Shown: piece after piece, positions 3,533-23,461 of the stretch
Layout of the letters: each line of letters opens with the position of its first letter
Position numbering within the stretch: position 1 is the stretch's first letter
Assembly: GCA_002694985.1 (NCBI GenBank)
Contig: NZNS01000010.1
Location: 767,392 to 831,391 of the forward strand
Direction: 5' to 3'
Source of the DNA: Parvibaculum sp.
GTDB lineage: Bacteria > Pseudomonadota > Alphaproteobacteria > Parvibaculales > Parvibaculaceae
Length of the DNA stretch: 64,000 bases
Program-made: the position numbers and the translations under genes
The notes under the pieces: model-generated
What the model was told of the DNA's origin: nothing
What the model saw: the letters and a program-made list of their open reading frames with translations, nothing else
The model's database searches: none

Positions 3533-3569
3533 GTGTTCCTCCTGCCGGCGCACGCCGTGCGCCGCTCAC

Positions 3570-5636
3570 TCATGAATTCAGATTGCGCGCCATGCGCTCC
3601 ATCATGTCGAGATACTTCGCGCGGGCTTCTTTCGCCTGCGTGTCTTCGGCCGGGTTCGGCGCCCATAACCGGCCAAGGTCGCGCTGGAGCTGCTCGGGCT
3701 CGCTCATCCGTTCTTCGGCGAGGCGCTTCCACTTTTCCTGGCCGTAGTGATCGAGACGAAGGTGATAGGCCATCGCCCGGTTGATGACCCACATATCGAG
3801 CTGCTCGTTGGGCTGATCCTTGGGTTTCACCCAGACCCGCTTCGAACGTCCGTCCCGCATCTCCTTCAGGGTGAGCGATTCCGCTGTGAGCTGCCGGAAG
3901 AATGCCTCGTCGCAGGCGTCCGGGAAATGACCTGCGCCGAGGGGCAGCATGCCGGTGTCGTCCGGTCCGCCAATCGTCTTGCGCAGCGACCCGTAAAGCT
4001 CACTCTTCGCCTGGAAGGTGCCGACCGGCCAGAGCATGGCGCCGTTCTTCGCCGACTTGCCGCTCACCGTCACATCGACGCGCTTCGGCGTGCCGAGAAT
4101 CGGCACATTCCATCCGTCGCGGCCGTCCGTCGCAAGCACCTGCGGGCGCGAGCGCGCATAGTTGTAGACGCGTTGCGACTTGTATCCGCTATCGACGCCG
4201 CAGGCTTCAATGCCCCAGGCCCGCCCGAATGTGTCCTCATATTTGCGGGCACGGATGCTGTCCAGCGCGCGCCACGGTCCATCCGTATCGGGGTCGCCCT
4301 CGATGATGCCGAAGTCGACCAGCCAGTAGCTGAGCGCCACGCCCCAGGCATAGACCGACCATTCGAGGCGGTTGACCTGCACGTCCGCGCCCATCGTGAG
4401 AACGAGGCCGCCCAGCGGGATCGTCTGCAGGCGGTAGGGCAGAACAGCCCCGAGCAGCTTCGAATGATCTGGCGCTTCACCACGATCGACATGCGCTTCG
4501 CCAAGCTCCTGCTGTGAGAAGTCCTTTTCCTTTAGGGGCTTTCCACGCGACGCGAGATATTTTGAGTAGATCGTTTCCCAGTCGACGAAGGGCGAATAGG
4601 CCTGCCAGATATGAAAGCCCGGCTGCCGCCCATTGGATGACCTCCCGCGCCAAGCCGCGATCTCGTCTGCGCCCAAGGTCTCTGGTGGGGCCGGGTTATT
4701 GCCGTCGTCGTCCTTATAGGTTTTGAGCCAGACACCTTTCGCGACCATATCGCGCTTGTTGTTGTGCTCGATGACGCAACCGTTCGCAGAGGCACACTGG
4801 AAGAAACAGCCCTTCGCGAGACCGTCTTTTCCGGCCTTGAGATTCTCAAATTTAAGAACCTGAAATATGCCGCATTCAGGACAAGGCACGTAGTAGCGGC
4901 GCTGATCGGACGCGACGTAGTAGTCGGTGATGCGGCATTCGCCGTCCATGCCAGGAGTCGAGGTCCAGAGACGCTTCACGCCTCGCCGCGTCCAGGCAGT
5001 GGTGCGACCAATGGCCTGATCCATGGGATCGCCACGGCCATCCGTGTCTCGTGGCCATTCCGAGATCTCGTCGCCCCAGAGACGGCGGACGGAGATCATC
5101 TGGAGGCCCTTGGAGGAGTTCGCCCCCGTGATCTGCGCAAAGCCGCCTCTAAACCGCTTAAAGGCGGAGGTTGAGCCGTCCTCCGTCCGGCTCTTCTGTT
5201 CGGCCACCTTGTGTCGCAGGGCTGGCGACGCATCGATTGCCGGCTGAAGCTTCGTCTTGACGAACTTCTTTCCCTCGTCAAGCGAGGGCAAAACGATCAG
5301 CATCGGTGCCGGATCTTCATCCGCCGTGTAGCCGAAGAAGTTTTCGCCGATAGCAGTCTTTGCGGTCTGCCGCGCCCATTTCAGCGTTACGTCTCGCGCC
5401 GGATCACTCGGCGATAGACACTCCATCGGCTCGATCCCATAGGGCACGAGCTGGTTGCGCCACTTGCCCGGTTCGGGCGAACCGCTTTCAGGAGCGACAT
5501 GGCGCTTTTCTTCGGCCCACTCCGCAACAGTGCGGTCAGGCGGCGGCCGCAGAGATTCGGCGAAGACACGAGCAACAACCACATGACCGGAGGCAAGCCC
5601 CGGAAAGCGTCTATGCAGCGCCTCCGCGTTGAGCAT
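3570..5636 (-). CDS. Terminase large subunit, GpA family
   Basis: 688 residues. The ATPase half has a Walker-A-like segment (KWARQTAKTAIGENF, about residues 86-100) and an acidic Walker-B-like segment (RRLWGDEISEWPRD). A zinc-ribbon-like part follows (CPECGIFQVLKFEN, then further Cys residues), as in lambda gpA. The C-terminal half contains the nuclease domain region (MGADVQVNRLEWSVYAWG). The enzyme cuts concatemeric phage DNA at cos and drives it into the prohead. The gene start overlaps the small terminase gene by 26 bp. Confidence 0.95.
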   Translation of the reverse strand: MLNAEALHRRFPGLASGHVVVARVFAESLRPPPDRTVAEWAEEKRHVAPESGSPEPGKWRNQLVPYGIEPMECLSPSDPARDVTLKWARQTAKTAIGENFFGYTADEDPAPMLIVLPSLDEGKKFVKTKLQPAIDASPALRHKVAEQKSRTEDGSTSAFKRFRGGFAQITGANSSKGLQMISVRRLWGDEISEWPRDTDGRGDPMDQAIGRTTAWTRRGVKRLWTSTPGMDGECRITDYYVASDQRRYYVPCPECGIFQVLKFENLKAGKDGLAKGCFFQCASANGCVIEHNNKRDMVAKGVWLKTYKDDDGNNPAPPETLGADEIAAWRGRSSNGRQPGFHIWQAYSPFVDWETIYSKYLASRGKPLKEKDFSQQELGEAHVDRGEAPDHSKLLGAVLPYRLQTIPLGGLVLTMGADVQVNRLEWSVYAWGVALSYWLVDFGIIEGDPDTDGPWRALDSIRARKYEDTFGRAWGIEACGVDSGYKSQRVYNYARSRPQVLATDGRDGWNVPILGTPKRVDVTVSGKSAKNGAMLWPVGTFQAKSELYGSLRKTIGGPDDTGMLPLGAGHFPDACDEAFFRQLTAESLTLKEMRDGRSKRVWVKPKDQPNEQLDMWVINRAMAYHLRLDHYGQEKWKRLAEERMSEPEQLQRDLGRLWAPNPAEDTQAKEARAKYLDMMERMARNLNS

Positions 5637-6258
5637 CGTTCTCGAAATCCTCCGAGAGTTTGGTCAGCACCTTCCGGTGCGCTTCGCGAAGAATGCTCGT
5701 GACTTCGGCAGGATCGGCAGTTGAGGCAATCTTCTCGCAGAGGTCGAGGTCCGGCGACATGAGGGCATCGCGCAGTTTGACGAGCGCGTTGCCGATGGCT
5801 TCCTCGACTTCCGCCGCCGGTGTGAGCTGCCCGGTCTCAGCGGCTTCCTCGCGTTCGAGCCTGTTAAGTTTGATCCGCTCCGCTCGTGCACGGATTTTCG
5901 CGACCGTCTCGTCCTGGAGCCCGCCGTCATCCGGCTCGTCTTCGGTTTCGATTTCGCGGGGTCGAGGCTCGGGGCGCAGCAACGGTGCCGGCGCGGGCTC
6001 GTCAAATACGCGACCGGCATGGTTGCCAGATTTCATCATGTTGATGTTTTCGCCGCGATGCTGCGCCAGTTCATCGAGATCGACGGCGATCTTTCCATCG
6101 ATCCGCGAATGGTTCAGCTCCGGGTAGGTTTTCAGATAGCGCGAGAGCGTCGAGCGATTGATGCCGAGCCGCTTCGCGGCCTCGCCACCGCTGACGATGT
6201 TGCGCGGTGCAACGTGTTTGTTGCCCTGCCCTGTTGCATCGCGTTGCGGGTGTTGCAT
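5611..6258 (-). CDS. Terminase small subunit (Nu1-like, HTH)
   Basis: 215 residues from ATG 6258; a TTG one codon upstream is also possible, and the ribosome site is weak. Residues about 20-65 form a winged-helix-like DNA-binding part (SGGEAAKRLGINRSTLSRYL), followed by a charged linker and a helical region that would contact the large subunit. Small subunits of this kind recognise the packaging site. A cluster of TGTTGCA sequences lies at and upstream of its start, which fits self-adjacent cosB sites as in lambda. Confidence 0.8.
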   Translation of the reverse strand: MQHPQRDATGQGNKHVAPRNIVSGGEAAKRLGINRSTLSRYLKTYPELNHSRIDGKIAVDLDELAQHRGENINMMKSGNHAGRVFDEPAPAPLLRPEPRPREIETEDEPDDGGLQDETVAKIRARAERIKLNRLEREEAAETGQLTPAAEVEEAIGNALVKLRDALMSPDLDLCEKIASTADPAEVTSILREAHRKVLTKLSEDFENDAQRGGAA

Positions 6259-6382
6259 CAAAATCCGAGGCCCCCACTAGCGAAACCGCACGCCCTTGCC
6301 GCCCGTATACGCCTTTCGCCGGGGAAGGACCCGCGAACCTGTTGCAGGCGGCGGCTTCGCGGGCACGCCGTCATGCAACAGG
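6199..6382. other. Candidate packaging site (cosB-like repeat cluster)
   Basis: TGTTGCA occurs at 6232, 6251 and 6340, with an inverted copy (TGCAACA) at 6374-6380. The 6338 and 6374 copies form 9-bp arms CCTGTTGCA/TGCAACAGG. A further inverted pair, GTTGC/GCAAC, lies near 6200-6214. In lambda, Nu1 binds repeated R sites beside its own gene; this cluster has the same position relative to the small terminase gene. The cohesive-end cut site itself was not identified. Confidence 0.45.
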
Positions 6383-6427
6383 CCACTCGCGGTCACATGG
6401 CGGCCTCCGTCTGACGGGTTGCCGGAA

Positions 6428-6459
6428 ACGAAAACGCCCCGCCGGTTTCCCGTGGGGCG
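6428..6459 (-). terminator. Rho-independent terminator
   Basis: Read leftward, CGCCCC (6459-6454) pairs with GGGGCG (6440-6435) and is followed by TTTTCGTTT. It lies just past the stop of the 6504-7286 gene and separates the early operon from the terminase genes. Confidence 0.6.
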
Positions 6460-6503
6460 CTCGTCTTGCAGTGTGGTGATTTAGGAGTCGAAGTGGCGGC
6501 AAG

Positions 6504-7286
6504 TCAAGCGACCTTCTCAAACGCCCGTATTTCGCTGGTCTTTTCGCCTGCGCGCATCCCCGCGATCAGCGCGTATCTATCGAGCGCGATTCGCAGCAGC
6601 ACCGCACCGACGCCCATGTTGCGCGGAATGCCGCAATAATCCTCCGCGTCGGCCAGGCACCAGTTATCAACAACGATCGCCATCGTGAAACCGATTGCGC
6701 AGTAGAACACCTGCCGCTTCGTCTTCGTCTCGCGATAGATCGGATCGCTCACAAGGTCGGCCAGCCATGGCCGGTACTCCTCGAGCCACCACTTTCCCTC
6801 GCGCTCGTTCATGCGCTGCATCGGATCGCGGAAGGCAGCGCCCCCTTGCACGCGCGTGCCGATCACCGCCGCGCCCGGCGTGAGCCCGCGCCCCAGCGCC
6901 TCACGCACAGAGGCGATGCGATCCGCCGCTGCCACATGCACTTGGTCCAGTGTGCCGCGCCGGAATAGCGCCTGCACTTGATCAGTCTTCAGCTTCGCGC
7001 GGGTTTGCGGCGTGCCGCGATCAACTGCCTCGCCAACCTTGGCCGCGTTCTTGCCACGCCGCTTGACCGGCTTTCGCGACACGAAGCCCGGAAAGGCCGG
7101 CGCTGTTTGAGCGAGCCTTTCCTGCGATATCTTCACGAAACCCATCCGCGCCGCCGATGCTATCCGCTTGTCGCGCTCCCCGCGTTCGGACGCCGAGAGC
7201 AGATCGAGCCATGCGGGCAATGGATAGGCACTCGGCGCTTCCACGCCTGTCCAGTCGATGATTTCCGTTTTCATGTCAGCCGTCAT
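6504..7286 (-). CDS. Phage protein of unknown function, end of early operon
   Basis: 260 residues. ATG 7286 overlaps the replication gene's stop. The N-terminal third is basic (SRKPVKRRGKNAAKV). The C-terminal part (about residues 215-250) looks like a helix-turn-helix (WCLADAEDYCGIPRNMGVGA followed by a long helix). A central segment (AADRIASVREALGRGL) is faintly like DUF6456-type proteins. It is the last early gene before a terminator and the late genes, the position held in lambda by antiterminator Q, so a late-gene regulator is possible. That is inference from position only. Confidence 0.55.
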   Translation of the reverse strand: MTADMKTEIIDWTGVEAPSAYPLPAWLDLLSASERGERDKRIASAARMGFVKISQERLAQTAPAFPGFVSRKPVKRRGKNAAKVGEAVDRGTPQTRAKLKTDQVQALFRRGTLDQVHVAAADRIASVREALGRGLTPGAAVIGTRVQGGAAFRDPMQRMNEREGKWWLEEYRPWLADLVSDPIYRETKTKRQVFYCAIGFTMAIVVDNWCLADAEDYCGIPRNMGVGAVLLRIALDRYALIAGMRAGEKTSEIRAFEKVA

Positions 7287-8116
7287 CTGCCTTGCCTCCC
7301 TGCCCGCTTTGTTTTCGCTGGACGCACGCCGTGCGCCACGACCTCGATCCTCCTGCCGAGCAATTCTTCGAGCCTGTCCCCGAAATGCTGGCGGATGTAA
7401 TTCGCAGAGAATGCCGATGGCGCCCGGATCAGGGCCGCCCCGTCGCGCGCTTCCGGTAGTTCAACGCGAACTTGTTTGAACCACGAGCTGTAGGTCGCCT
7501 TGCCGAGTTCGGCTTTCAGCCGGGCGAGTGCAGTGCGGGCGGGGTCGAAGGCAACAGGCGGCGATGTATCGCTGTACGCGCGCGCGTCTTCAGGAATCTC
7601 TGACTCGTTAAGTTGACTCGTTATTGATGTATCCGCAGGCGATACATGCCCTGTGCTCCCTGCGGATTCATGCCCTGTATCGCTGGAAGCACAGGGGTAT
7701 GTATCGCTGTGAGCACAGGGGTATGTATCGCTGTGAGCACAGGGGTATGTATCGCTGTGAGCACATGCCCCATGTGCCTCCGCCGATACAGGGGGGTGCG
7801 TTTCGCAGCCCTCTGAAGGCACCGGATTCACCGGCGGATCGAGGACAACCCGGTAGAGATTTGCCGCCTTCCCACCGTCTTTCCGGCGCTGCGGATGCAC
7901 CTCGAGATAGCCCAGTTCAGCCAGCTTCGCGACCGCGCGGTTAACGGCCGGGCGTCCGATTCCAAGCACCTTGCCGATCTCGCCCTGGCGCGGAAAACAC
8001 CAGCCCTCATTGTCTGTATACGTCCCGATTTGCCCGAGAACACGCAGACATGTCTCGTTAAGATTGGGGTCGGCCACCGCCGCCGCCGGAATGATACTCA
8101 GCCGCCTCTTGCTCAC
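7283..8116 (-). CDS. Phage replication initiator: winged helix plus DnaA domain I
   Basis: 277 residues from GTG 8116. Residues about 15-90 form a winged helix of the phage O/Rep type (GQIGTYTDNEGWCFPRQGEI, then GRPAVNRAVAKLAELGYLEV). Residues about 115-145 are a linker with three copies of CAHSDTYP. Residues about 190-262 match DnaA domain I (AELGKATYSSWFKQVRVEL ... FSANYIRQHFGDRLEELLG), the part of DnaA that contacts DnaB helicase. The simplest model is that the winged helix binds the iterons in its own gene and the DnaA-like domain loads the host helicase. No ATPase domain is present. Confidence 0.8.
   Translation of the reverse strand: MSKRRLSIIPAAAVADPNLNETCLRVLGQIGTYTDNEGWCFPRQGEIGKVLGIGRPAVNRAVAKLAELGYLEVHPQRRKDGGKAANLYRVVLDPPVNPVPSEGCETHPPVSAEAHGACAHSDTYPCAHSDTYPCAHSDTYPCASSDTGHESAGSTGHVSPADTSITSQLNESEIPEDARAYSDTSPPVAFDPARTALARLKAELGKATYSSWFKQVRVELPEARDGAALIRAPSAFSANYIRQHFGDRLEELLGRRIEVVAHGVRPAKTKRAGRQGR
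7566..7772. repeat. Iterons / candidate prophage replication origin
   Basis: Four 24-bp direct repeats begin at 7677, 7701, 7725 and 7749, each starting GTATCGCTG and containing GAGCACAGGGGTAT or a close variant. The core GTATCGCTGT recurs at 7566, and an inverted copy lies at about 7637-7658. Between these, 7590-7635 is AT-richer than its surroundings and has two GACTCGTTA repeats. The arrangement of initiator gene, internal iterons and AT-rich stretch is that of the lambda origin inside gene O. Function is inferred. Confidence 0.65.
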
Positions 8117-9423: not shown

Positions 9424-9888
9424 TTACATCGTGCCCTCTCCGCCAGCCCCTTTCCGCACGCCGTGCGCCTTCCCGACATGGTGACAATTGTCATCTGTCG
9501 TGCCGCTCTCTGGACACCCCGGCGAATGCCGGGTTGTGTCCGTGTCGTTCGTGAGTTCCGCCTTGAGGTCACCCGGCGCGAGCCCGAAGGCATCGAGCGC
9601 CGCGATCGCCTGTTCGCGCACACCCGCAAGCTCCGGATCGGCCAGCCCTTCGCCGCTGCCGAGCCATTCTGCGATATCCTCAAGCAACAGCAGTGCCGCC
9701 GTCAGCTTGTGCCAGGGCTCGGCGGCGTAGTGCCGCGAGGCCGTATAGGCGCCCGCCGTATGCGCGCCGATCTCCGGCGCAGCATCGCCCACGATGAACT
9801 GGATGACGCCAGCCTGCGGCGCGAGGCGCAGCTGCTGCATTGTTTCGGAAAGGAAGCGCCGGTCAGCCCCGGGCGAGCGAAACCCCAT
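9424..9888 (-). CDS. Early phage protein of unknown function
   Basis: 154 residues. ATG 9888 follows the sliding-clamp stop by two bases. The first 70 residues look structured (MQQLRLAPQAGVIQFIVGD); the last 40 are polar and low in hydrophobic residues, and include AHGVR, which is encoded by one copy of the prophage palindrome (9453-9469). No known domain recognised. Confidence 0.5.
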   Translation of the reverse strand: MGFRSPGADRRFLSETMQQLRLAPQAGVIQFIVGDAAPEIGAHTAGAYTASRHYAAEPWHKLTAALLLLEDIAEWLGSGEGLADPELAGVREQAIAALDAFGLAPGDLKAELTNDTDTTRHSPGCPESGTTDDNCHHVGKAHGVRKGAGGEGTM

Positions 9889-12637: not shown

Positions 12638-12972
12638 GGCAGCCTCCAATCGGGGAACGGCTGCTCCACTTCGCGCGGCCACCAGCGTTTGCGCAGGCCG
12701 CGAAAGCCCGGGATCGGTTCGTCAATCGTCACTGCGACCGCGCCGCCCCGGCGCAGGATCGCGGGGCCGTCCATACCGATTACCGGCGCGTAGCCTCTCA
12801 GCTTTCCATGTGCGACCACGTAAAACCTGTCGCCGGGCCGGATCAGAAATCGATAGCTGTGGCGCGTGTACCATCCCCACGTTTGGCCGGACTCCGGCGT
12901 TCCAGCGATGTCGCCTTCCGCTATCCACTCTTTCCAGAAGTCTTTCGGGCAGGTGCCGACGAGATCGACCAT
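12634..12972 (-). CDS. Conserved phage protein of unknown function
   Basis: 112 residues from ATG 12972, overlapping the methyltransferase stop (TAATG). The pattern MVDLVGTCPKDFWKEWIAEG, WGWYTRH and PGDRFYVVAHGKLRGYAPV is one I associate with small beta-rich proteins of several alphaproteobacterial phages, possibly with a PUA/ASCH-like barrel. It sits beside the adenine methyltransferase, but no functional link can be shown from sequence. Confidence 0.5.
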   Translation of the reverse strand: MVDLVGTCPKDFWKEWIAEGDIAGTPESGQTWGWYTRHSYRFLIRPGDRFYVVAHGKLRGYAPVIGMDGPAILRRGGAVAVTIDEPIPGFRGLRKRWWPREVEQPFPDWRLP

Positions 12973-13613
12973 TACGTGTCCCTCCCGAAGCGCACGCCAT
13001 GCGCCGCCACCGCCTCGTCTTTCGACACGGCCGCATAGTGCTGCGCGTAAGGTCGTCCGCCTTGGCCGGTGAAGGGCTCGCCGCCCGCCACCCAGTCCCA
13101 GACGAGCCAGACGCAGTTCATCACCGGGCGTCCCTGCCCCGTCCAGTCGAGCCGCCAGCCCAGCGGGTGAATGCGCGAGGGGGGAAATTCATTGAAGAGG
13201 CGCTGCCGCGCGGCCTTCCCCGCCGCCTGGAAAAAATCGGCTTTCACCAGCAGCGCGAGATAGCGCGCGCCGAGCGCCCGGGCATGGCGAATGAAGCTTT
13301 CGACCAGCTCGCCATAAGGCGGATTGGTAATGACTACGGGCGCGCGAAGCCTCCGCGCTTTCAGGAAGTCGACGCCACCTTTCCCGAAGCCCCGGTCGAC
13401 AAGATCCGTCGAGGTCACGCGGAAACCCGCCGCGCTAAACACGCGCGACATGCGGCCACGCCCACAGGCCGGCTCCCATATATCGCCGGAAACATGCGCC
13501 ATGCGCCGCCCTTCCCGCGCCAGCAGGGCGAGCGTGCCCGCCTCTTCCGTTTCGTGAAGCTGGTTCGGGTTTGTCCGAAGCGTCGACCCGCCGCGTGCGA
13601 CAAGTGGCGTCAT
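12972..13613 (-). CDS. DNA N6-adenine methyltransferase
   Basis: 213 residues from ATG 13613. It has the two essential motifs of class I amino-methyltransferases: the AdoMet-binding EPACGRGRMSRVF (about residues 47-59) and the catalytic TNPPYGELVESF (about 95-106). The enzyme probably methylates adenine in phage or host DNA. No restriction endonuclease gene is next to it, so it looks like an orphan, self-protecting or regulatory methylase. The recognition sequence cannot be read from the protein. Its C-terminus encodes AHGVR from a degenerate copy of the prophage palindrome. Confidence 0.8.
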   Translation of the reverse strand: MTPLVARGGSTLRTNPNQLHETEEAGTLALLAREGRRMAHVSGDIWEPACGRGRMSRVFSAAGFRVTSTDLVDRGFGKGGVDFLKARRLRAPVVITNPPYGELVESFIRHARALGARYLALLVKADFFQAAGKAARQRLFNEFPPSRIHPLGWRLDWTGQGRPVMNCVWLVWDWVAGGEPFTGQGGRPYAQHYAAVSKDEAVAAHGVRFGRDT

Positions 13614-13939: not shown

Positions 13940-14187
13940 CACACGCCTCCCTCATGCTGAGGAACGATCAGGCCGGCCGAGCCCGCAGCTGCCGTGTGCC
14001 AGAGAAGCGAAAGCACCGGCTGCATGTAGACTCCGGCCGTCTCAAGCATCTGCAACCCGTCAGCGAGCCGCCCGGCAAGATCGCCATGAACTTCAAGCGT
14101 CGTGTTCGCCTCATCGGCGAGATGAAGGCAGTCGTCGGCATAGCGCCAGTGATAGCGGCTCTCGATATCGAAGAGAGGATCGTTCAT
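13939..14187 (-). CDS. Small phage protein of unknown function
   Basis: 82 residues from ATG 14187 (MNDPLFDIESRYHWRYADDC). Helical throughout, with a moderately hydrophobic C-terminal half (YMQPVLSLLWHTAAAGSAGL) that could be a membrane or packing helix. Overlaps both neighbours by four bases or fewer. No family recognised. Confidence 0.45.
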   Translation of the reverse strand: MNDPLFDIESRYHWRYADDCLHLADEANTTLEVHGDLAGRLADGLQMLETAGVYMQPVLSLLWHTAAAGSAGLIVPQHEGGV

Positions 14188-14669
14188 TTCCGCTTCCCCC
14201 GTTTCTCGAGGTCCGCAAGCGCCGTGCGCAGCGCGATGAGCTTTTCGACGGCTTCGTCGATTTCGCGGGTGATGTTCAGCTCGCGGACTTCTTCCGCCGT
14301 GATCGTGCCGCCCTGGGCGAGCGCTTGGCCCACCACGGCAATGGCCTCGCCGCATTCCTTGGCGATGTCGCCGAGGTGGCGTCCCCACTCGCCCGTGCCG
14401 TCGAGGCTGGGCAGCTCAATCAGCACATGGCCCTGCGCGCGGGCGATCTCGCGGGTGAGATGCGGTTCGCCATTCGCCGCTTCGAGATCGAGCAGCACGT
14501 CGACAGGCAGAAAGCGGCCGACATTCGGATTCTCACAGCGCGACAGTTCCGCCCGTTCGATCCGCGTCACCTTCGCGGCTAGCTCCAGCCCCCCGGCATC
14601 GCGCATGAGCAGCCGCGTCGCCGCCTTCAGGCGCAAGTAAGTGTCTTCGGAGTGAAAACGCCCGGTCAT
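14184..14669 (-). CDS. Possible CII-like phage regulator
   Basis: 161 residues from ATG 14669. The first half has a helix-turn-helix-like pattern (LRLKAATRLLMRDAGG, then LELAAKVTRIERAELSRCEN) followed by LPVDVLLDLEAANGEPHLTR, text I associate with CII-type regulators in phages of Proteobacteria. The C-terminal third is an acidic coiled coil (EEVRELNITREIDEAVEKL), which could drive oligomer formation. Being second in the early leftward operon is where a CII gene would be expected. Function remains a hypothesis. Confidence 0.5.
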   Translation of the reverse strand: MTGRFHSEDTYLRLKAATRLLMRDAGGLELAAKVTRIERAELSRCENPNVGRFLPVDVLLDLEAANGEPHLTREIARAQGHVLIELPSLDGTGEWGRHLGDIAKECGEAIAVVGQALAQGGTITAEEVRELNITREIDEAVEKLIALRTALADLEKRGKRK

Positions 14670-15502
14670 GCGCCACCCCGCGCACGGGAGAAAAGCCCGC
14701 GCCCTTTCTCCATTACTTTCCGGAGCGTGCGCGGCATCCTCGCGCCATGGAAAAGAGAGCGAACCCGCATGCGCGAGGGACGGAGCATCGTCCCGACCGA
14801 GCGCCCAACACCGACGCAAAAGTGAACAGCGAACGCGGCCACCGAGGAGGAGGGAGGGGTGACCGCGCCCGCCGTCTCCCCGGCGGTGACGGGCGCACCG
14901 GCGGGAAGCCGCAAATCGCGGGAAATGAGGCCGGGCGTGAGATTGGCGGCGGGCGCACCCGGCGCACGCCGTGCGCCGGAGGCCGCCTGTCCCGGCGAAA
15001 GCCGGGATGCGCCGCCTGCTTCGAGGAAGCGTCGCTTGACCCCGTCCTCGAAAGCGCCGGGCGTGGAGTCGAAAAGGAAGATCGGCCCCTTGCCGTCGCG
15101 ACTGAAACGCCGCGCGCGGTTGACGAGGTCGTCATTGACCTCCCGCGCCATATCGAGGGAGGACGGCTCGCAAGCCGTCACCGTGACGAAGCGCGACAAC
15201 TCGGCTTCGTCGATAAGACCCTTGAGCTTGAGGCAGCGCTCAGCGACACCCGCCTCCATGCGGATCTGGGCGGGCTGGGCTTTGACCTCATGCAGCACCG
15301 CCTGCGCCTCGCTCATCCACCGGGCGAGATCGGGTGCCGGATACTTCCCGTCCCGGCCCGGCCGCGATGCGATACAGTCATTGAGCAGCACGAGGCAGCT
15401 CTCGACCACCCGCGCATCCTGCGCCGCGCGGGCACAGGCTTCGGCCCGCGCACGGCGGAACGCCTTGGTCTCGTCGTCCGGAAAATGCAGGAGGTCCGTC
15501 AT
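14666..15502 (-). CDS. First gene of the early leftward operon, unknown function
   Basis: 278 residues from ATG 15502 behind CAGGAGGTC-like sequence on the plus-strand complement. Residues 1-130 look folded (MTDLLHFPDDETKAFRRARA; LARWMSEAQAVLHEVKAQPA). The rest is a low-complexity Ala/Pro/Arg linker carrying one perfect copy of the prophage palindrome (14961-14977), then a basic tail (MLRPSRMRVRSLFHGARMP). No family recognised. Confidence 0.5.
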   Translation of the reverse strand: MTDLLHFPDDETKAFRRARAEACARAAQDARVVESCLVLLNDCIASRPGRDGKYPAPDLARWMSEAQAVLHEVKAQPAQIRMEAGVAERCLKLKGLIDEAELSRFVTVTACEPSSLDMAREVNDDLVNRARRFSRDGKGPIFLFDSTPGAFEDGVKRRFLEAGGASRLSPGQAASGARRAPGAPAANLTPGLISRDLRLPAGAPVTAGETAGAVTPPSSSVAAFAVHFCVGVGRSVGTMLRPSRMRVRSLFHGARMPRTLRKVMEKGRGLFSRARGGA

Positions 15503-16319: not shown

Positions 16320-16919
16320 ATGGAAATTCATGAACGATTACAGGAAGCTAGAAAGAAGGCGGGTTACAGGTCGCCCTCGACGGCGGCCAAGGCCATGGGT
16401 GCGAACATCTTCACCTACACCCAGCACGAGAACGGCACGCGCGGCATCCGCCGAGATGTCGCCGCCCGATATGCAGCTTTCTTTCGAGTGGATATTGGCT
16501 GGCTTCTCACCGGCAAGGGGAAGTCAGGCCGCCGAGACGATATCCCCGTTGTCGGCTATGTCGGCGCCGGCGCCGAGGTTCATCCGGTCGATGCCTACGC
16601 GCAAGGCGAGGGTTTCGACACGGTCGAGGCGGGCGTGCTGCCGCCCGACGCGGTCGCGCTCATCATCAGGGGCGACAGCATGTATCCGCTGGAGGATGGC
16701 TGGATCATCGTCTATCGGCGCGACCGCGACGGCGTGCCCTCGGCCTGCCTCAACAGGCTCTGCGTGGTGAAGGTCGCGAATGACGGGCCGGTGCTCATCA
16801 AGAAGATCAGGCGCGGCGCTGAGAAGAACACCTACACGCTCGAAAGCTGGAACGCACCGCCGCGCGAGAACCAGACGCTCGAATGGGCGGCGCCGGTCGA
16901 GGACATCAAGCCGAGATAG
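16320..16919 (+). CDS. CI-like repressor (HTH plus S24 domain)
   Basis: 199 residues from ATG 16320; five earlier codons are open but overlap the third operator. Residues about 1-60 are an Xre helix-turn-helix (SPSTAAKAMGANIFTYTQHE). Residues about 75-199 are a LexA/CI-type S24 domain, with the possible autocleavage region VGYVGAGAEV, the serine motif IIRGDSMYPLEDGW and a downstream lysine (RLCVVKV). This is the lysogeny repressor, probably inactivated through RecA-stimulated self-cleavage. It likely controls both the divergent Cro-like gene and the rightward operon from 18541. Confidence 0.88.
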   Translation: MEIHERLQEARKKAGYRSPSTAAKAMGANIFTYTQHENGTRGIRRDVAARYAAFFRVDIGWLLTGKGKSGRRDDIPVVGYVGAGAEVHPVDAYAQGEGFDTVEAGVLPPDAVALIIRGDSMYPLEDGWIIVYRRDRDGVPSACLNRLCVVKVANDGPVLIKKIRRGAEKNTYTLESWNAPPRENQTLEWAAPVEDIKPR

Positions 16920-17226: not shown

Positions 17227-17236
17227 CGCGCGCGGC

Positions 17237-17842
17237 TCACCTGGTTGTTGTCGCCAGCGCCCGCGCTTCCCGCGTTGCGTTCTGGATGAAACCCATCAGC
17301 GCCATGCGCGAGGCGGTGGAGATCATCGGCCCTGCATCGTCGCAGAGCGCAATCTTGCCGCGCCTTGCCCCGCTCCCTTCGGGGCTCGCCTGACCGATCA
17401 AGCCGCCCGGCCCCACCAGCGCCACGATCCCGCTCATGCCGACCGAGGCCTCGGCGCCGAATGTCCAGTAGGCCTGTTCGACGATCAGCAGCCGCGTGTC
17501 GAACGCACCCTGATAGACGATGATCGATGCGTCATATCCCTGCGCGGCGAGATCTGCCGGTTTCATCTCCGGCGTGAGGGTGACGCTTTCGAAATTGTCG
17601 TCGAGCGCCTTCTTCATCGCGACGGCATAGGCGCCGTCGGCATCGGTCGGAAAGGTCCAGCCGCCACAGGCAAAGCCTTCGGCGGAAATGTCCTTCCGCC
17701 AGGCGCCGCTCTGGATGGTCGCGGCATAGCGGCCGGGTATCCTGCCACCGTCATTCCAGTCCGCATTCGGCAGACCCACTTTGACGGGCGACGAACACGC
17801 GGCGAGCGCGAGGAGCGCGAGGGCAAAAAGGGACGCGCGCAT
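17237..17842 (-). CDS. Lipoprotein of unknown function
   Basis: 201 residues from ATG 17842, overlapping the upstream lipoprotein stop (TGATG). A short signal peptide ends in the lipobox LALAAC at about residues 11-16, so the mature protein starts with a lipidated Cys followed by SSPVKVG. The remainder is mixed alpha/beta with one probable beta core (YDASIIVYQGAFDTRLLIVE). No recognised domain. Likely held at the cell envelope, possibly modifying the lysogen. Confidence 0.6.
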   Translation of the reverse strand: MRASLFALALLALAACSSPVKVGLPNADWNDGGRIPGRYAATIQSGAWRKDISAEGFACGGWTFPTDADGAYAVAMKKALDDNFESVTLTPEMKPADLAAQGYDASIIVYQGAFDTRLLIVEQAYWTFGAEASVGMSGIVALVGPGGLIGQASPEGSGARRGKIALCDDAGPMISTASRMALMGFIQNATREARALATTTR

Positions 17843-18366
17843 CAATCGACCAGCTCGATGCCCTTGGGGCGCGCCATCTGCGTCGGCAATGCCTCTGCCG
17901 GCAGGACGCGCTGATAGCCGCCGGTATTCTGCACCATCACGCGCATGCCGTCCGGCAGCGTGCTTTCGCCCTTGCCGATATCCTGCACCACCGTGAGCGC
18001 GACGCCGCTTTGCAGCATCACGACATATTCAACGCCGGTCCTGTCGGCGGCGGCCTGCTCGATCAGCGCCCCGGCGACGGCGCCGGCGAGAAGCCCCGCG
18101 CTGATCGCCCAGGCATTGCCCGAGCCGCTGCCCGCATAGGAGCCCGCGCCCGCGCCGACCGCCGCGCCGACAAGCCCGCCCGTGCCGGTGTTCTTGCCGG
18201 TGATATCGACCTCGCGACTGGCGACGATTGTGCCGAAGGTCACGGCGCTGGCCTGCCCGACCTCGTCATATTTGTAGACGTTCTGGCTTTGCCGCTGCGC
18301 GCAGCCGGCGAGCACGAGCGCTGCCAGCACGATGGCGGCCAGCCCGGCGATTCGTCCTGATCTCAT
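17842..18366 (-). CDS. SlyB-like glycine-zipper lipoprotein
   Basis: 174 residues from ATG 18366 behind GGGGGAT. The signal peptide ends in the lipobox VLAGC (residues 18-22). A glycine-zipper stretch (GTGGLVGAAVGAGAGSYAG, about 61-79, and AGAVAGALIEQ) is typical of the SlyB/17-kDa surface antigen family of outer-membrane lipoproteins. A C-terminal domain resembling the family's beta module follows (EYVVMLQSGVALTVVQD). SlyB-type proteins are normally core genes, so its presence inside a prophage immunity region is notable. Confidence 0.75.
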   Translation of the reverse strand: MRSGRIAGLAAIVLAALVLAGCAQRQSQNVYKYDEVGQASAVTFGTIVASREVDITGKNTGTGGLVGAAVGAGAGSYAGSGSGNAWAISAGLLAGAVAGALIEQAAADRTGVEYVVMLQSGVALTVVQDIGKGESTLPDGMRVMVQNTGGYQRVLPAEALPTQMARPKGIELVD

Positions 18367-18453
18367 CTGATCCCCCATCCATTTATTCACCACCCTTATA
18401 GCGCATGCCGCCACACCGCGCGAATCCCCGCTTTCCTCCCGCCTTTGCGTTTT

Positions 18454-18499
18454 GTGCGTTTCGCACTTGTGCCGTGGTTTCGGATAGTGCATATTGCAC
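18454..18499. promoter_or_regulatory. Two repressor-type operators at the rightward operon promoter
   Basis: GTGCGTTTCGCAC (18454-18466) and GTGCATATTGCAC (18487-18499) have the same GTGC-N5-GCAC form as the sites next to the repressor gene, here 33 bp apart. A weak promoter can be drawn between TTGTGC (about 18467) and CATATT (about 18490), so one site would cover the -10 region. This places the 18541 operon under the CI/Cro-like proteins. Confidence 0.65.
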
Positions 18500-18540
18500 T
18501 CCACAGGCGCGCGGCGTGCGCCGCAACCGAGGGAGCAGGC

Positions 18541-18786
18541 ATGGTCTTCGAGATCGAAAAGGGCATTGAGGTTCCGGACCCGCAGCAGAAGATACGCCGG
18601 ACCTACCCCTTCCCGGACATGAAGCCGGGCGACAGCTTTCTCGTTCCCTGCAAACCCTCTGAATCGAAACAGACGGGGAAGCGCCTGGGCGTCGCTGCGC
18701 GGCGCTGGTCGTGCCGGCAACCCGGCAAGCCACGCTTCGCCGTGCGGCAGGTCGAGGGCGGTGCTCGCTGCTGGCGCATCGAATGA
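18541..18786 (+). CDS. Small phage protein, paralogue of the next gene
   Basis: 81 residues from ATG 18541, with GGGAGCAGGC upstream. The pattern YPFPDMKPGDSFLVPC and the ending GGARCWRIE recur in the following gene. It appears in the same small family found beside many phage early genes: a short basic alpha/beta protein with no assigned function. It is the first gene of the operator-controlled rightward operon. Confidence 0.6.
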   Translation: MVFEIEKGIEVPDPQQKIRRTYPFPDMKPGDSFLVPCKPSESKQTGKRLGVAARRWSCRQPGKPRFAVRQVEGGARCWRIE

Positions 18787-18841
18787 ACCTGCTTTTTTTA
18801 CATCGTCGCGGACTTCGCTCGCGACAGGACGGGGAACCGAC

Positions 18842-19093
18842 ATGACCATCAATATCGACAAGGGCGTGCCTGTGCCGCCTGTCACATACCAGACCCGTCG
18901 CCTCTACCCCTTCGAGGAGATGCAGCCGGGCGACAGCTTCTTCGTGCAGACGAAGGACGCGGCGGAACGCATCCGCAAGCGTCAGTCGGTTGCGGCGGCC
19001 GCCAAGAAATTTCGCAAGGACAGTGAACCCAACACGCTCCGCTTTACCACACGGCAGGTCAGGAACGGCGTGCGCTGCTGGCGCATCGAATGA
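18842..19093 (+). CDS. Small phage protein, tandem paralogue of the previous gene
   Basis: 83 residues from ATG 18842. It shares with its neighbour the opening (short acidic strand then VPVPPVTYQTRRLYPFEEMQ), the block PGDSFFV and the ending GVRCWRIE, so the pair arose by tandem duplication. The middle is basic (AAERIRKRQSVAAAAKKF). A tract of ten C begins six bases after the stop codon starts. Function unknown. Confidence 0.6.
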   Translation: MTINIDKGVPVPPVTYQTRRLYPFEEMQPGDSFFVQTKDAAERIRKRQSVAAAAKKFRKDSEPNTLRFTTRQVRNGVRCWRIE

Positions 19094-19159: not shown

Positions 19160-19189
19160 GGCCCGTCCGCCCCCCCCGGCGGACGGGCC
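19160..19189. other. Hairpin with a C-run loop
   Basis: GGCCCGTCCGCC (19160-19171) is complementary to GGCGGACGGGCC (19178-19189), with six C between. A second C-run (19099-19108) lies upstream. There is no T-run after the hairpin, so a simple terminator is unlikely. It could attenuate or stabilise the message between the paralogue pair and the ParB-like gene. Confidence 0.5.
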
Positions 19190-19223
19190 ATCCGGGGACG
19201 GACACCTCAAACAGGAGAGACAG

Positions 19224-21098
19224 ATGGACAAGCAGCAAAAAGCCCGCGTCACCGCCATGGAGGCGGATCGCGACGATGCGAAGCTTTCCTATCGCGGCCT
19301 CGCGCAAAAGGCCGGGGTCAGTGACGGAAACATCCGCGACGCCGTAAAAGGCCGCAAGGATATGGGCGAGGGCAATTGGGGCAAGGTCGCTTCGGCCCTT
19401 CCCGGCGGCAAGCTCGAAGCTCTGCTGCAGGCGGCGGGCATCGAGATTCCCGGCCCCCCGGCGCACGCCGTGCGCCAGCAAGGCGATGCGGCAGGCATCG
19501 TCGCCATCCCCTTCGGCAACCTCCGGCCGAACCCGGACAATTACCGCAAGACCTTCGACCCGGAAGATATCGCCGGGCTGGCCGAAAGCATCGCGGAGAA
19601 CGGCGTGCTGCAGAACCTCGTTGTGCGCGAGGCGGACGGCGAGGACATCCACACGATCAACTCGGGCGGGCGGCGCTACGCGGCAATGATGAGCCTGCGC
19701 GCGCAGAACCGCATCGACGATACCTTCCCGGTCCCCTGCCTCGTGCGCAGCATGAAGGACACCGAAGCCCGCGCGCTGGCGCTCATCGAAAACCTGCAGC
19801 GGCAGGACGTGCCGGTGCTCGAGGAGGCGGAGGGCTTCAAGGCGCTCACTTCGCTTGGATGGGACACGGAGAAGATCGCCACCGCCTGCCACATCGCGCC
19901 GCGCACGGTGCAGGACCGGCTCCAGCTTTTCGACAAGCTGAAGCCCGTCGCCCGCAAGGCGCTGGCCGAGGGGCAGATCACGCTCGACCAGGCGCGCGCG
20001 ATCGTGTCGACGCCCTTCGAAAAAGAGCAGAACGAACTCGTGACTTACGCGGTGAGGAACGGCTACAGCGCCGCCTCGCTGCGGGACAAGGCGAAGGCTG
20101 GCAAGGTGCCGGTGCGCGTGGCCGGGTTCGACCTTAAGAAATACAAGGGCGACTATATGGGAACCGGCACGGAGCGCGTCTTCGCCGACACGGACGCCTT
20201 CATGAAGCTGCAGCGCAAGGCCGCGCAGCAGAAGGTCGACGAGATCAAGGCCAGTGGACGCTTTGCCAGCGTCACGCTTCTCGCGATCGGTGAATATTTC
20301 GACTATTCGCGCTTCCACCATCTGGACGAAGAGGACATCGCCGAAGAGACCCCGGAGGCTTTGAAGGAGCTTCACGCCTTCGTCTCCGTCGACCGCTGGC
20401 GTCACGATATCGAGATCGAGTACGGACGTCCCGACGAGCGAAGCGCGGCACGCGGGCCGGACGATGACGAGGATGGCGCGGCGGAGGACGAAGCGCAGCT
20501 CGATCTTGAGCCCGAGATCCGCCGCAAGAAAAGGGAAGAAGAGCTGGCGGCAGGCTCGCGATGGCAACGCGACATGCTTGCCGCCGTTGCCGCGCGCGCG
20601 GCGGACTACTTCCGAACGGAGATCCTGCGCGACCTTGCCGGTCTCGGTACGACGTGGCGTCCGGTTCACTTCGACATAATGACTGTCAATCTCCCCGCGA
20701 CAGCGGAGATCATTCAGTCCGCCACGGGCAGCCCTTTCGTCTTCGACGCTATCGAGGAGGGCGTCGCGCTTGCCGATGTGCCGCGCAACGAAGATATCGG
20801 CTTCATCGACGCGGCGGACATCCCCTTCCTCCGCGCATGGCTCACGAACCAGCCGGACGCGGATGTGACCCGCCTTTACGCGCAGCTCCAGGTAAGCCGC
20901 TCCATGCTCTTCCATCCGCACACGCTCGATGGCGAAACGCTCGCCCTCTCCCAGAAGATCGGCGTGCCGGTGCCGCCGCATATGACTCCGGAGCCGGAGG
21001 AAGACGAAGAGGTGAACGAGGAAGCGGAGGAATATGACTACACCACAGTCGACCGGCGCATCGCTCTTGACGGCGAAGCCGAGGAGGAACTGGCATGA
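19224..21098 (+). CDS. ParB-like DNA-binding protein
   Basis: 624 residues from ATG 19224 behind AGGAGAGAC. Residues about 1-75 form a lambda-repressor-like helix-turn-helix (LSYRGLAQKAGVSDGNIRDA). Residues about 90-200 are a ParB/Spo0J N-terminal domain with LRPNPDNYRKTF, INSGGRRYAAM and ALALIENLQRQD. A KorB-like helix-turn-helix follows (TEKIATACHIAPRTVQDRL). The last 270 residues are acidic and unassigned. No ParA gene lies nearby. It might bind the repeated palindrome found across the prophage, one copy of which lies in its own linker (19460-19476). Roles in replication, segregation or transcription are all open. Confidence 0.8.
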   Translation: MDKQQKARVTAMEADRDDAKLSYRGLAQKAGVSDGNIRDAVKGRKDMGEGNWGKVASALPGGKLEALLQAAGIEIPGPPAHAVRQQGDAAGIVAIPFGNLRPNPDNYRKTFDPEDIAGLAESIAENGVLQNLVVREADGEDIHTINSGGRRYAAMMSLRAQNRIDDTFPVPCLVRSMKDTEARALALIENLQRQDVPVLEEAEGFKALTSLGWDTEKIATACHIAPRTVQDRLQLFDKLKPVARKALAEGQITLDQARAIVSTPFEKEQNELVTYAVRNGYSAASLRDKAKAGKVPVRVAGFDLKKYKGDYMGTGTERVFADTDAFMKLQRKAAQQKVDEIKASGRFASVTLLAIGEYFDYSRFHHLDEEDIAEETPEALKELHAFVSVDRWRHDIEIEYGRPDERSAARGPDDDEDGAAEDEAQLDLEPEIRRKKREEELAAGSRWQRDMLAAVAARAADYFRTEILRDLAGLGTTWRPVHFDIMTVNLPATAEIIQSATGSPFVFDAIEEGVALADVPRNEDIGFIDAADIPFLRAWLTNQPDADVTRLYAQLQVSRSMLFHPHTLDGETLALSQKIGVPVPPHMTPEPEEDEEVNEEAEEYDYTTVDRRIALDGEAEEELA

Positions 21099-21478
21099 AC
21101 AGCCTTCAGGAAATGATCAACACATCGCTTGTGGAGCTGTTCGATAGCGGCAAGGCGAAGGAGATCGTCGACGGCTATGTCGAGAAGATGGTGAAGGATG
21201 TGGTGTCCTCCGCCACCCGCCCCTATTCGGAATTCGGCAAGACGCTCGAAGCAAAGCTCGCCGAGCATCTCCAGGTCGACTTCGGCAAGCTGGACTTCCC
21301 TGCCTACAACCATCTCGTGACGCAAGTCGTGCAGCGCTCGCTGCGTCACACGCTGCAGGACGATGCGGCGAAGCAGCAGCAGCGTGCAGAGGATCGCGCA
21401 GCCGTCGAGGCCGGATACATGCCGCTGAAGGATTACATCGCCAAGTGGGGCGACGACAAGGAAGGCGGTGCCGCATGA
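21095..21478 (+). CDS. Phage protein of unknown function
   Basis: 127 residues. ATG 21095 overlaps the ParB-like gene stop, so the two are probably translated together. Mostly helical (MNSLQEMINTSLVELFDSGK; YVEKMVKDVVSSATRPYSEF), acidic overall, ending KEGGAA. No domain recognised. Confidence 0.55.
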   Translation: MNSLQEMINTSLVELFDSGKAKEIVDGYVEKMVKDVVSSATRPYSEFGKTLEAKLAEHLQVDFGKLDFPAYNHLVTQVVQRSLRHTLQDDAAKQQQRAEDRAAVEAGYMPLKDYIAKWGDDKEGGAA

Positions 21479-21759
21479 GCGAATCGCTGCACAAAATCAC
21501 GCTCTATCGCGACGACAGCACGACGCCTGTCACCTTCGAAAACGTGAAACACACCTTCTGGACGGCCAGCAGCTCCGTTTTCGTCATCGCGCAGATATCG
21601 GACCTTGCAACGGGAAAACACCACTACATCCACTGGCCGCGCGAGCGCTTCTGCTGGTTCCGCCACGAGCGGCAGGACGGACAGGAGATCGTGTACCAGA
21701 CCATGATCGACGGCCAGCCGATACGCCCTGACCTGGACCCGACCGGAGGCGCCACATGA
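21475..21759 (+). CDS. Phage protein of unknown function
   Basis: 94 residues from ATG 21475, overlapping the previous stop (ATGA). Predicted beta-rich: LHKITLYRDDSTTPVTFENV, FVIAQISDLATGKHHYIHWP. The aromatic cluster RERFCWFRHERQDG is distinctive. No family recognised. Confidence 0.5.
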   Translation: MSESLHKITLYRDDSTTPVTFENVKHTFWTASSSVFVIAQISDLATGKHHYIHWPRERFCWFRHERQDGQEIVYQTMIDGQPIRPDLDPTGGAT

Positions 21760-21986
21760 GCCGCGCCGCCGCCCTTGACGAACTCATGCAGGAGCTTGCC
21801 CGCCACATCGACAAACGCGTCGAGGAGGTCGCCGACGAGCGGTTGCCGATAGCTCTCTTCATCTTCGATGGAGATCAGGCGCATGCCGTGGCAACCGGCG
21901 AATGGGAGGCGACCCGCGCCGCGCTCGCGGACTGGACGGAAGACCCCCGCCGGCCTGCCACGACCTTCACGCTGAAGGGACACTGA
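21756..21986 (+). CDS. Small phage protein of unknown function
   Basis: 76 residues from ATG 21756, overlapping the previous stop (ATGA). One long N-terminal helix (ALDELMQELARHIDKRVEEV) and a beta hairpin (PIALFIFDGDQAHAVATGEW). No domain recognised. Part of the operon that ends in integrase. Confidence 0.5.
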   Translation: MSRAAALDELMQELARHIDKRVEEVADERLPIALFIFDGDQAHAVATGEWEATRAALADWTEDPRRPATTFTLKGH

Positions 21987-22267
21987 TGCCACCGCGCGGC
22001 CAGATACCCATGGATGAAAAGCCGCCTTCACAGCAGAACCTGCGGCACACGGAGCTGAAGCCCCGGCGCGGGCTTCGCCGGGAAGAGGCTGCGCTTTATA
22101 TCGGGGTCAGCCCCTCAAAATTCGACGATCTGGTCAAGGATCGCCGAATGCCGCGACCGAAATTGATCGACGGTTGCAAGACCTGGGATATCTGGAAGCT
22201 CGACATTGCCTATGACGAGCTTCCCGAGGATGATGGCAAGGGAAACGACATCGACTTCGCAGTATGA
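21986..22267 (+). CDS. AlpA/MerR-like HTH protein, excisionase candidate
   Basis: 93 residues from ATG 21986 (overlapping the previous stop); an internal ATG at about codon 9 is also possible. The core LRREEAALYIGVSPSKFDDL followed by RRMPRPKLIDGCKTWDIWKL is a small winged helix of the AlpA/excisionase type. It ends 12 bp before the integrase start, the usual place for an excisionase or directionality factor. Confidence 0.65.
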   Translation: MPPRGQIPMDEKPPSQQNLRHTELKPRRGLRREEAALYIGVSPSKFDDLVKDRRMPRPKLIDGCKTWDIWKLDIAYDELPEDDGKGNDIDFAV

Positions 22268-22279
22268 CCGGCCGGAACC

Positions 22280-23461
22280 ATGGTGAAAAAGCATCTCCGC
22301 TACGTGGTGGAGCAGAAAGACCGTTACGGCAATGTGCGCCTCTATTTCTGGAAGCGTCCCGGCCCGCGCATTCGTCTGCACGGCACCTTCGGCTCCGAAG
22401 ACTTCATGAAGCAATACGGCCGCTGTCTTGCCGAAGCGACCGGTGCCATCGCGCCACGTGCACTGGAAGCAGCCGGCGGCCGCCACCTCATAAGGCCCGG
22501 TTCGTTCCGCGCGTTGTGCGTCTCCTGGTTTTCGAGCGCGGAGTTTCGGACGTCGTTAAACGAGCGCACGCAATATGTGCGCCGTCGCATCATCGAGCAG
22601 ATGTTGCAGGAGCCCGTGAAGCCAGATGCTGCACTTCTCTTTGCCGATGTACCTGTCGCCAAGTTCACGTCCAAGGCCGTGCGCGTGCTGCGCGACCGCA
22701 AGGCCGATACGCCGGAAGCCGCCAACACGCGCGTCAAGGCGCTTCGGGCGGTCTTTGCGTGGGCGATTGAGGCCGGAGAAGCCGAAACCAATCCGGCCCG
22801 CGATATTCCCTATTTGCGCAATGGCTCAGACGGCTTCCACACCTGGTCGATCGACGAAGTACGGCAGTTCTTCGCGCATCACTCGGTCGGCACAAAGGCG
22901 CATCTGGCGCTCTCGCTTCTCCTTTTCACCGGCGTGCGGCGCGGCGACGCTGTGCAGCTTGGCCGGCAGATGATCCGGCGGCATCCGGACCCGTGGCTCC
23001 ATTTCACCGAGCAGAAGGGGCAGCGCAAGAAGGCAAAGCATCGCGAGATCCCGGTGCTGCCGCAGCTCATGGAAAGCATCGACGCCTACGAGGGCGGCAA
23101 TCTCACCTTTCTCGTGACCGAGTTCGGCAAACCGTTCACGGCAAACGGCTTCGGCAACTGGTTTCGCAAACGCTGCAACGAGGCCGGCCTCCCCCATTGC
23201 ACAGCGCACGGCGTGCGCAAGGCAGGCGCGACGATCGCGGCCGACAACGGCGCGACCGAGCATCAGCTTATGGCGATATATGGATGGGAAAGCCCGAAAC
23301 AGGCGGCGCTTTATACGCGCAAAGCGAACCGCAGGAAGCTCGCCGGTGACGCCATGCACCTCATCGCGCCACCCGCTCGCGGCACGGAAGAAGAACGGAC
23401 AGTTATCACTTCGGAGGGTGATTGCAGTCCGGTGATAACATCAGGCCGAAAAGCTCAATAA
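22280..23461 (+). CDS. Tyrosine-type phage integrase
   Basis: 393 residues. The C-terminal catalytic domain has the tyrosine recombinase residues: Arg in LLLFTGVRRGDAVQL (about 217), Lys near KKAKHREIPV, the HxxR box HGVRKAGAT (about 314), a His/Trp in IYGWESPKQ and the nucleophile Tyr in ALYTRKANR (about 342). The N-terminal half includes a core-binding SAM-like domain (NTRVKALRAVFAWAIEAG). The stop lies 23 bp from the tRNA-Phe 3' end, the probable attachment site. The last 30 residues past the catalytic domain are variable and polar. Confidence 0.95.
   Translation: MVKKHLRYVVEQKDRYGNVRLYFWKRPGPRIRLHGTFGSEDFMKQYGRCLAEATGAIAPRALEAAGGRHLIRPGSFRALCVSWFSSAEFRTSLNERTQYVRRRIIEQMLQEPVKPDAALLFADVPVAKFTSKAVRVLRDRKADTPEAANTRVKALRAVFAWAIEAGEAETNPARDIPYLRNGSDGFHTWSIDEVRQFFAHHSVGTKAHLALSLLLFTGVRRGDAVQLGRQMIRRHPDPWLHFTEQKGQRKKAKHREIPVLPQLMESIDAYEGGNLTFLVTEFGKPFTANGFGNWFRKRCNEAGLPHCTAHGVRKAGATIAADNGATEHQLMAIYGWESPKQAALYTRKANRRKLAGDAMHLIAPPARGTEEERTVITSEGDCSPVITSGRKAQ

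Follow-up and report, generated by a model that had tools for sequence, protein, structure and literature searches.

What reads a palindrome that recurs through one prophage, and to what end? The question is raised by a 64,000-nucleotide stretch of a Parvibaculum sp. genome (the window; genome contig C7:767392-831391 of 3.42 Mb), which opens inside a prophage carrying many copies of one 17-bp palindrome. The sequence-only reading had reported eight copies confined to the prophage and had proposed either a binding site for a ParB-like protein encoded there or a small palindromic mobile element. Our comparison strongly supports the former: regions selected by ParB, a sister variant of the site and the ranking of recognition-helix residues all suggest that the palindromes are very probably binding sites of the prophage's own orphan ParB. 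For the full statement, that the ParB clamp loads at the palindromes, coats the prophage and assists lysogenic silencing, we estimate a probability of roughly 0.6.

The observation is real and larger than first reported. The prophage occupies 46.1 kb between 22-bp attachment (att) repeats and extends left past the window start, and it contains 12 copies of the palindrome at up to two mismatches, 8 of them with the perfect 13-bp core CGCACG-S-CGTGCG. The eight copies claimed for the window are all present at up to two mismatches, against a shuffle mean of 0.18, and none of 100 shuffles reached eight; Markov models of order 1-4 predict 0.01-0.03 cores per 46 kb. Seven of the listed positions were right, while the last copy, placed at 23213, lies at 23203-23219. 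Across the genome, 19 places match at up to two mismatches: 12 in the prophage (C7:750900-790610), four of them left of the window (C7:750900, 755121, 755747 and 765757), and 7 elsewhere, all with a broken core. The exact core CGCACGNCGTGCG occurs eight times in the genome, every time inside the prophage and never in the other ~3.38 Mb, so that the proposed confinement was borne out. The prophage contains 22 distinct odd palindromes of 13 bp, of which this one is found eight times and every other at most twice.

The candidate reader is predicted to consist of an N-terminal XRE-like helix-turn-helix (HTH), ParB_N, HTH_ParB and a long C-terminal part. Its Pfam matches, PF02195 (59.5 bits) and PF17762 (39.9 bits), are both above the cut-off, and the match to 1vz0 has an E value of 1.3e-27. 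In the nucleotide motifs GxRR and ENxxR, residues G148, R151, E189, N190 and R193 are invariant in 24 relatives and R150 is nearly so. By the order of ParB_N and HTH_ParB and by these cytidine triphosphate (CTP)-motif residues, the predicted protein fits the ParB/Spo0J clamp family. The model matches the folds of ParB (6t1f, Z 19.5), Noc (7nfu, Z 19.0) and KorB (8qa9, Z 15.9; 1r71, Z 11.3). In the model, residues 1-72 form helices resembling XRE-type regulators (Z up to 9.6 on superposition), a common fold, and the predicted recognition helix comprises residues 226-238 (mean model confidence, pLDDT, 85).

The site co-occurs with ParB in other phages. An IMG/VR scan for the exact 17-mer gave 49 stretches. 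Among the 16 records counted at up to two mismatches, G027 had 12 copies, G028 11, G029 and G030 10 each, G042 8 and G032 7; exact cores in 19 other records numbered 7 in G047, 5 in G061, 3 (clustered) in G064, 2 in G065 and 1 in each of 15. The seven multi-copy records G027, G028, G029, G030, G032, G042 and G047 all encode ParB. Protein search found it in 6 of 31 records searched (G027, G028, G030, G032, G042 and G047), and the G029 protein gave a weak Pfam match (E 4.3e-5, below the cut-off) together with a strong match to a home-made ParB-core profile, the training set of which included G029 and G030. Pfam ParB_N matched 8 of the 31 records; the five that passed the cut-off were all multi-copy, and the single-copy records G044 and G051 gave weaker matches. 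The G027 record represents either the present phage itself or a near-identical relative. For the greater part of its length, G028 shows 97-99% identity to this phage; its ParB is only 55% identical, yet 10 exact cores are kept. G029 and G032 each share one short 70% piece with this phage, and G030 and G042 share none at the 70% threshold, a comparison that did not include G047.

The converse selection gave a similar picture. When regions were chosen by ParB sequence alone, the site was present in four of the six fetched, with 8 exact cores in G012, 8 in G023, 7 in G025 and 14 in G078, and it was the top de novo palindrome in each; G078 belongs to another genus and its ParB is 32% identical. 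Four genomes of the genus gave a ParB match at E<=1e-28, and these contain 8, 9, 15 and 16 exact cores; the remaining 23 genomes contain 0-2 each, 14 in total. We also collected 158 ParB loci with flanks of 10 kb or less (the 80 top-ranking of 262 relatives and the 80 top-ranking of 313, minus two already known), which contained 32 cores against 0.49 expected, all in five loci with 4-8 each. L131, L132 and L134 are G023, G025 and G078 again, and L219 matches L134 in ParB length and helix, which leaves L130, from a metagenome bin of Hoeflea, as the only core-bearing locus that is clearly new. Searches with the G047 and G042 ParBs returned only themselves, and no repeated palindrome of note was found in replicon NZ_CP029360 (50 of 54.9 kb read) or plasmid p1META1, which carry related ParBs.

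Two ParB-encoding phages repeat other palindromes: GTGCAGANNTCTGCAC lies at 5757, 15562 and 29453 in Variovorax phage VarioGold (L290, OP296522.1) and is shared by L148 and L275, and GTGCACACGTGTGCA[CT] lies at 7663, 13370 and 20626 in Acidovorax phage Aval (L289, OP131589.1). They may follow the same principle with other specificities, which is suggestive only.

The half-site varies together with the ParB helix. In the same set of 158 loci, sister ParBs are accompanied by a palindrome of the same 6-1-6 geometry with one base pair changed, CGAACG-N-CGTTCG, in 2-8 copies each (L210, L211, L213, L214, L215, L216, L221, L232 and L251); L229 has only the outer half of a CGAACG-type palindrome, and L218 and L220 have TGAACG-N-CGTTCA. 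We refer to the CGCACG half-site as class C and to CGAACG as class A. Among 223 alignment columns (residues 88-310) of 23 ParBs, residue 231 separated the classes best, residue 100 second and residue 228 third, and both 231 and 228 lie within the predicted recognition helix; this ranking is not tree-aware, and a plain tree without support values shows the classes intermingled. Of the 12 class-A proteins, 9 have F at residue 228 (6 of the 12 read R-F-V-x-Q-R) and all have Q at residue 231. Class C has T, Y, D, W or H at residue 228 and, at residue 231, D in 7 of 11 proteins and Q in G028 and G078; therefore, no single residue is decisive. A residue rule was scored on 69 loci, namely 61 of 80 further, mostly new loci (19 were dropped as already used or repeats) and 8 earlier unclassed ones, and it held only partly. 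Of the seven loci predicted as class A, L297, L298 and L299 had 3, 2 and 4 class-A cores; L298 and L299 have identical match scores and may be one phage. Outside the rule, L322 had 2 class-C cores and L301 had 2 class-A cores.

The form and placement of the sites suggest that selection acts on the DNA. Of 96 exact cores, 95 have G or C as the central base; a purine stands next to the arm in 189 of 192 cases, and the flanks are unconserved beyond ~9 bp from the centre. Variants in G030 keep the symmetry (GACGCACG...CGTGCGTC). Of 120 sites that have at most one core mismatch, taken from 11 regions, 40.5 are located between called genes, though 80-93% of the sequence was called coding; these coding and intergenic counts are approximate because our home-made gene caller erred (ORF 7283-8116 was overlooked, and 17842-18849 was treated as a single gene), and they include near-duplicate G028 and some chance one-mismatch sites. 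The 79 intragenic sites use frames 1, 2 and 0 in 42, 32 and 5 cases, and 38 of them lie within 30 amino acids of a gene end, against 28% expected. The two intergenic copies described earlier correspond to 3547 and 18506. In different phages the sites occupy different genes and frames, late structural genes included. The site in the parB linker, where the model has pLDDT <50 at residues 79-89, recurs in G028, G012 and G025 at 51-62% nucleotide identity and is absent there in G023 and L130; G032 likewise has one site within its parB frame, where the protein reads AHAVR. The degenerate site at 12989 has a perfect core at the same place in G028, and for the site in ORF 14666-15502 no copy stood at the orthologous place in the aligned genes of G012, G023 and G025, the pairing being loose.

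The sites are also more evenly spaced than random placement predicts. The mean gap is 2.0-5.0 kb across regions. Of 10 regions, 9 had a coefficient of variation of spacing smaller than the mean for random placement, and 6 reached p<0.05, with a combined p of 2.0e-6; exact cores alone, in 9 regions, gave a combined p of 4.5e-6. The null was random placement between the outermost sites, near-duplicate G028 was left out, and some regions are contig fragments. In this prophage, the 12 sites are spread over ~40 kb without clustering. The coordinates are collected in Table 1.

Table 1. Palindromic sites and genes of the prophage in window coordinates.
Feature	Position	Strand	Remark
Small ORF	3326-3532	-	
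Perfect site	3547..3563	.	between terminase large subunit gene and small ORF 3326-3532
Terminase large subunit gene	3570-5636	-	
Replication-initiator-like ORF	7283-8116	-	
Site, perfect core, 1 outer mismatch	7321..7337	.	near 3' end of ORF 7283-8116
ORF	9424-9888	-	
Site, perfect core, 2 outer mismatches	9453..9469	.	near 3' end of ORF 9424-9888
DNA-methyltransferase-like ORF	12972-13613	-	
Degenerate site, one core mismatch	12989..13005	.	near 3' end of ORF 12972-13613
CII-like regulator (Phage_CP76)	14184..14669	-	within ORF 14184-14819
ORF	14666-15502	-	
Perfect site	14961..14977	.	inside ORF 14666-15502
CI-like repressor, HTH + peptidase S24	16320..16919	+	
Site, one core mismatch	18506..18522	.	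read as intergenic; 18 bp upstream of ATG 18541 (+), Shine-Dalgarno-like stretch there
Orphan ParB-like protein, 624 aa	19224..21098	+	candidate reader of palindromes
Perfect site	19460..19476	.	inside parB, linker between N-terminal HTH and ParB_N (codons ~79-85)
Tyrosine integrase	22280..23461	+	
Site, perfect core	23203..23219	.	inside integrase gene; encodes HGVR (HxxR) motif
Right att core	23479..23500	.	identical 22 bp at C7:744759, left of window; overlaps tRNA-Phe 3' end (23484-23559 -)

The prophage also encodes a portal, a head protease, a major head protein and a J-like tail protein besides the terminase, and parB, the CI-like repressor and the integrase all lie on one strand. Relatives of the CII-like regulator were found near 15 of the 22 parB loci compared (own locus included) and CI-like relatives near 10 of 22. 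Just upstream of parB, direct repeats of 74 and 55 nt (77-78% identical, 301-307 bp apart) at 18541-18800 and 18842-19093 indicate that a small DUF7303-like gene has been duplicated in tandem. A different palindrome, GTCCCGGCGAAAGCCGGGA, occurs once in the window, at 14989-15007, 12 bp from the 14961 site, and in G023 and L130 a near copy fills the stretch of the parB linker that contains the ParB site in other relatives. On another contig, the Parvibaculum genome studied here encodes a second long ParB-like protein (G000:C9:18081-18878; L072, L126) with a different recognition helix.

We propose the following mechanism. A ParB dimer would read the two CGCACG half-sites through its HTH recognition helices, bind CTP via the conserved GxRR and ENxxR motifs, close as a clamp and slide from the palindrome into adjoining DNA; ParB-family clamps are described as loading at specific sites and sliding with the use of CTP (PMC8429893, PMC11790492). 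Because a site occurs every few kilobases over ~40 kb, clamps loaded at neighbouring sites could together extend over the entire phage genome, with hardly any on the host DNA. The consequence would most likely resemble the action of KorB of plasmid RK2, a CTPase clamp of the ParB family that is described as having many dispersed sites and as silencing at long range from distal ones (PMC11790492): a prophage-wide coat would assist the CI- and CII-type regulators encoded near parB in repressing lytic genes. The same coat would act likewise on DNA of the same phage at superinfection. The CI- and CII-like genes near parB are no more than candidates for a KorA-like clamp-locking role. The ParB core superposes on site-loading CTP clamps (ParB, Noc and KorB), no AAA_31-type ParA was found in the prophage and CI/CII relatives lie near many of the parB loci; therefore, we favor a clamp coat assisting silencing.

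Several results weigh against this proposal, the least secure part of which is silencing. Taken by itself, this prophage lacks significantly even spacing (p = 0.10), and G025 shows no even spacing (p = 0.79). Five cores lie in a 25.7-kb fragment of G061 in which no ParB was found. The more distant ParB-like genes (31-32%) of G000:C9 and of G004:C6, a stretch with runs of N, have no such sites, and the first 40 kb of the former contig contain no repeated palindrome of note; therefore, not every ParB relative has a grid. The residue rule failed in four of seven class-A predictions (L309, L311 and L312 were siteless and L339 had one class-C copy) and in all three class-C predictions, which came from the 8 earlier low-count loci. 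Finally, the integrase copy may be protein-driven, as it encodes the conserved HxxR motif, and the earlier caution about this copy was fair.

The chief rival to silencing retains the same pair of ParB and sites and assigns the coat a protective or activating role, in which it displaces a host silencer, shields phage DNA from nucleases or orders replication and packaging. Such a coat would mark phage DNA only, the sites also span late structural genes, and VirB is described as a CTP-using ParB relative that counteracts H-NS (PMC10676424). The parB gene, however, is grouped on one strand with the genes for the CI-like repressor and the integrase, an indirect sign that fits lysogeny better, and we regard the protective role as unlikely, if well above the remaining alternatives. 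A ParABS-type centromere serving an extrachromosomal or replicating phage state would also combine a ParB with parS-like palindromes. AAA_31 (PF13614), the ParA family searched for, gave no match in the prophage interval or in seven of seven IMG/VR records (G023 and G025 lay outside this search); G012 has one match 14 kb right of its last site (C1:1144532), which may or may not belong to that prophage. With the sites unclustered and an integrase and att sites present, we consider a centromere very improbable.

Alternatively, the palindromes could be dispersed operators of the CI- or CII-like regulators that are frequent near these loci, comparable with the stoperators of mycobacteriophages, described as dispersed repressor sites (PMC6550527). 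CI-like relatives, however, lie beside both site classes (class C in this phage, G012, G023, G028, G029, G078 and L130; class A in L213, L214 and L215), while ParB helix residues track the class, and stoperators are described as asymmetric and mostly transcription-oriented (PMC6550527), whereas the prophage sites are symmetric; we give this explanation scarcely any weight. The least probable explanation, in our view barely tenable, is a small mobile palindromic element, a REP-like (repetitive extragenic palindromic) repeat or an RNA hairpin. The GC-rich IMG/VR contigs L031, L047, L053, L054 and L057 do repeat the 17-mer without a ParB-core match, and in L031, L047 and L053 it centres a longer dispersed GTACGGG/GTAGGGG...CCC repeat (GTACGGG/GTAGGGGCGCACGGCGTGCGCCC) that is apparently unrelated. 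In the ParB phages, by contrast, the lack of flank conservation leaves no longer unit of the REP or MITE (miniature inverted-repeat transposable element) type, the sites occupy different genes and all three frames, and variants keep their symmetry, so that the mobile element suggested earlier is disfavoured. Rfam at the gathering threshold found only tRNA in window positions 1-24000. A methylase target was rejected by reasoning alone, because the usual methylases have targets shorter than 13 bp. The letters of the 13-bp core were not found in the open full-text literature; an 11-bp part occurs in 11 papers that, by title, are unrelated to phages or ParB.

ParB clamps with dispersed sites are known from KorB and Noc. 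The KorB operator, OB, recurs ~12 times on the plasmid as a palindrome of odd length centred on S. The prophage sites, 12 in number, are likewise dispersed odd palindromes with an S centre, and the two systems share the clamp-family fold and many sites on their own replicon (RK2/RP4 for KorB); here, in contrast, the carrier is a phage, the half-site is another, the protein has an extra N-terminal XRE-like HTH, and a roughly even grid runs through structural genes, compared with placement by promoters for KorB. Noc of Bacillus subtilis is described as nucleating on scattered 16-bp Noc-binding sites (NBS) and spreading as a CTP clamp (PMC8429893). It resembles the prophage ParB in fold and in having sites scattered round the replicon; Noc, however, acts on the host chromosome, which the prophage sites avoid, and its N-terminal amphipathic helix binds the membrane, whereas the N-terminus of the prophage ParB is modelled as an XRE-like HTH. 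Canonical ParABS (ParB/Spo0J and parS) shares the domain core, CTP-motif residues and a palindromic site, and differs in that here no AAA_31 ParA was found, the sites are unclustered and their sequence is another. ParB-CTPase-fold proteins lacking a ParA partner are described as frequent in prophages and plasmids, with their role left open (PMC12704722); the prophage-borne ParB, for which no ParA partner was found, resembles this group, for which the available text of that source describes no DNA sites, whereas we propose a site grid and a specificity switch. The stoperators of cluster A mycobacteriophages are similarly dispersed over the phage genome with motifs that vary with the protein (PMC6550527); unlike the symmetric prophage sites with ParB as candidate reader, they are asymmetric and oriented and serve a non-ParB repressor. 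The new elements are thus the phage-borne setting, the roughly even grid and the switching of half-sites between sister phages.

This study also provides insights into phage ParBs. One group of them gains a concrete putative DNA target and a natural specificity switch between sister phages, and the prediction follows that ParB would be bound along the entire prophage but to little of the host DNA. ParB and grid change together (CGCACG, CGAACG, TGAACG); therefore, the pair could serve as a self/non-self code. We tentatively suggest that a wide group of temperate phages possesses sequence-specific self-chromatin, in which an orphan ParB clamp and a roughly even, genome-spanning grid of its loading sites coat phage DNA only, over its full length, and the code directs coating together with silencing or protection of incoming phages. 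If the proposed mechanism is true, phage lysogeny would be linked to the long-range control by CTP clamps that, as described, has so far been worked out for RK2 (PMC11790492), and our results suggest that the sites of other phage ParBs may be found as a single palindrome recurring at even steps.

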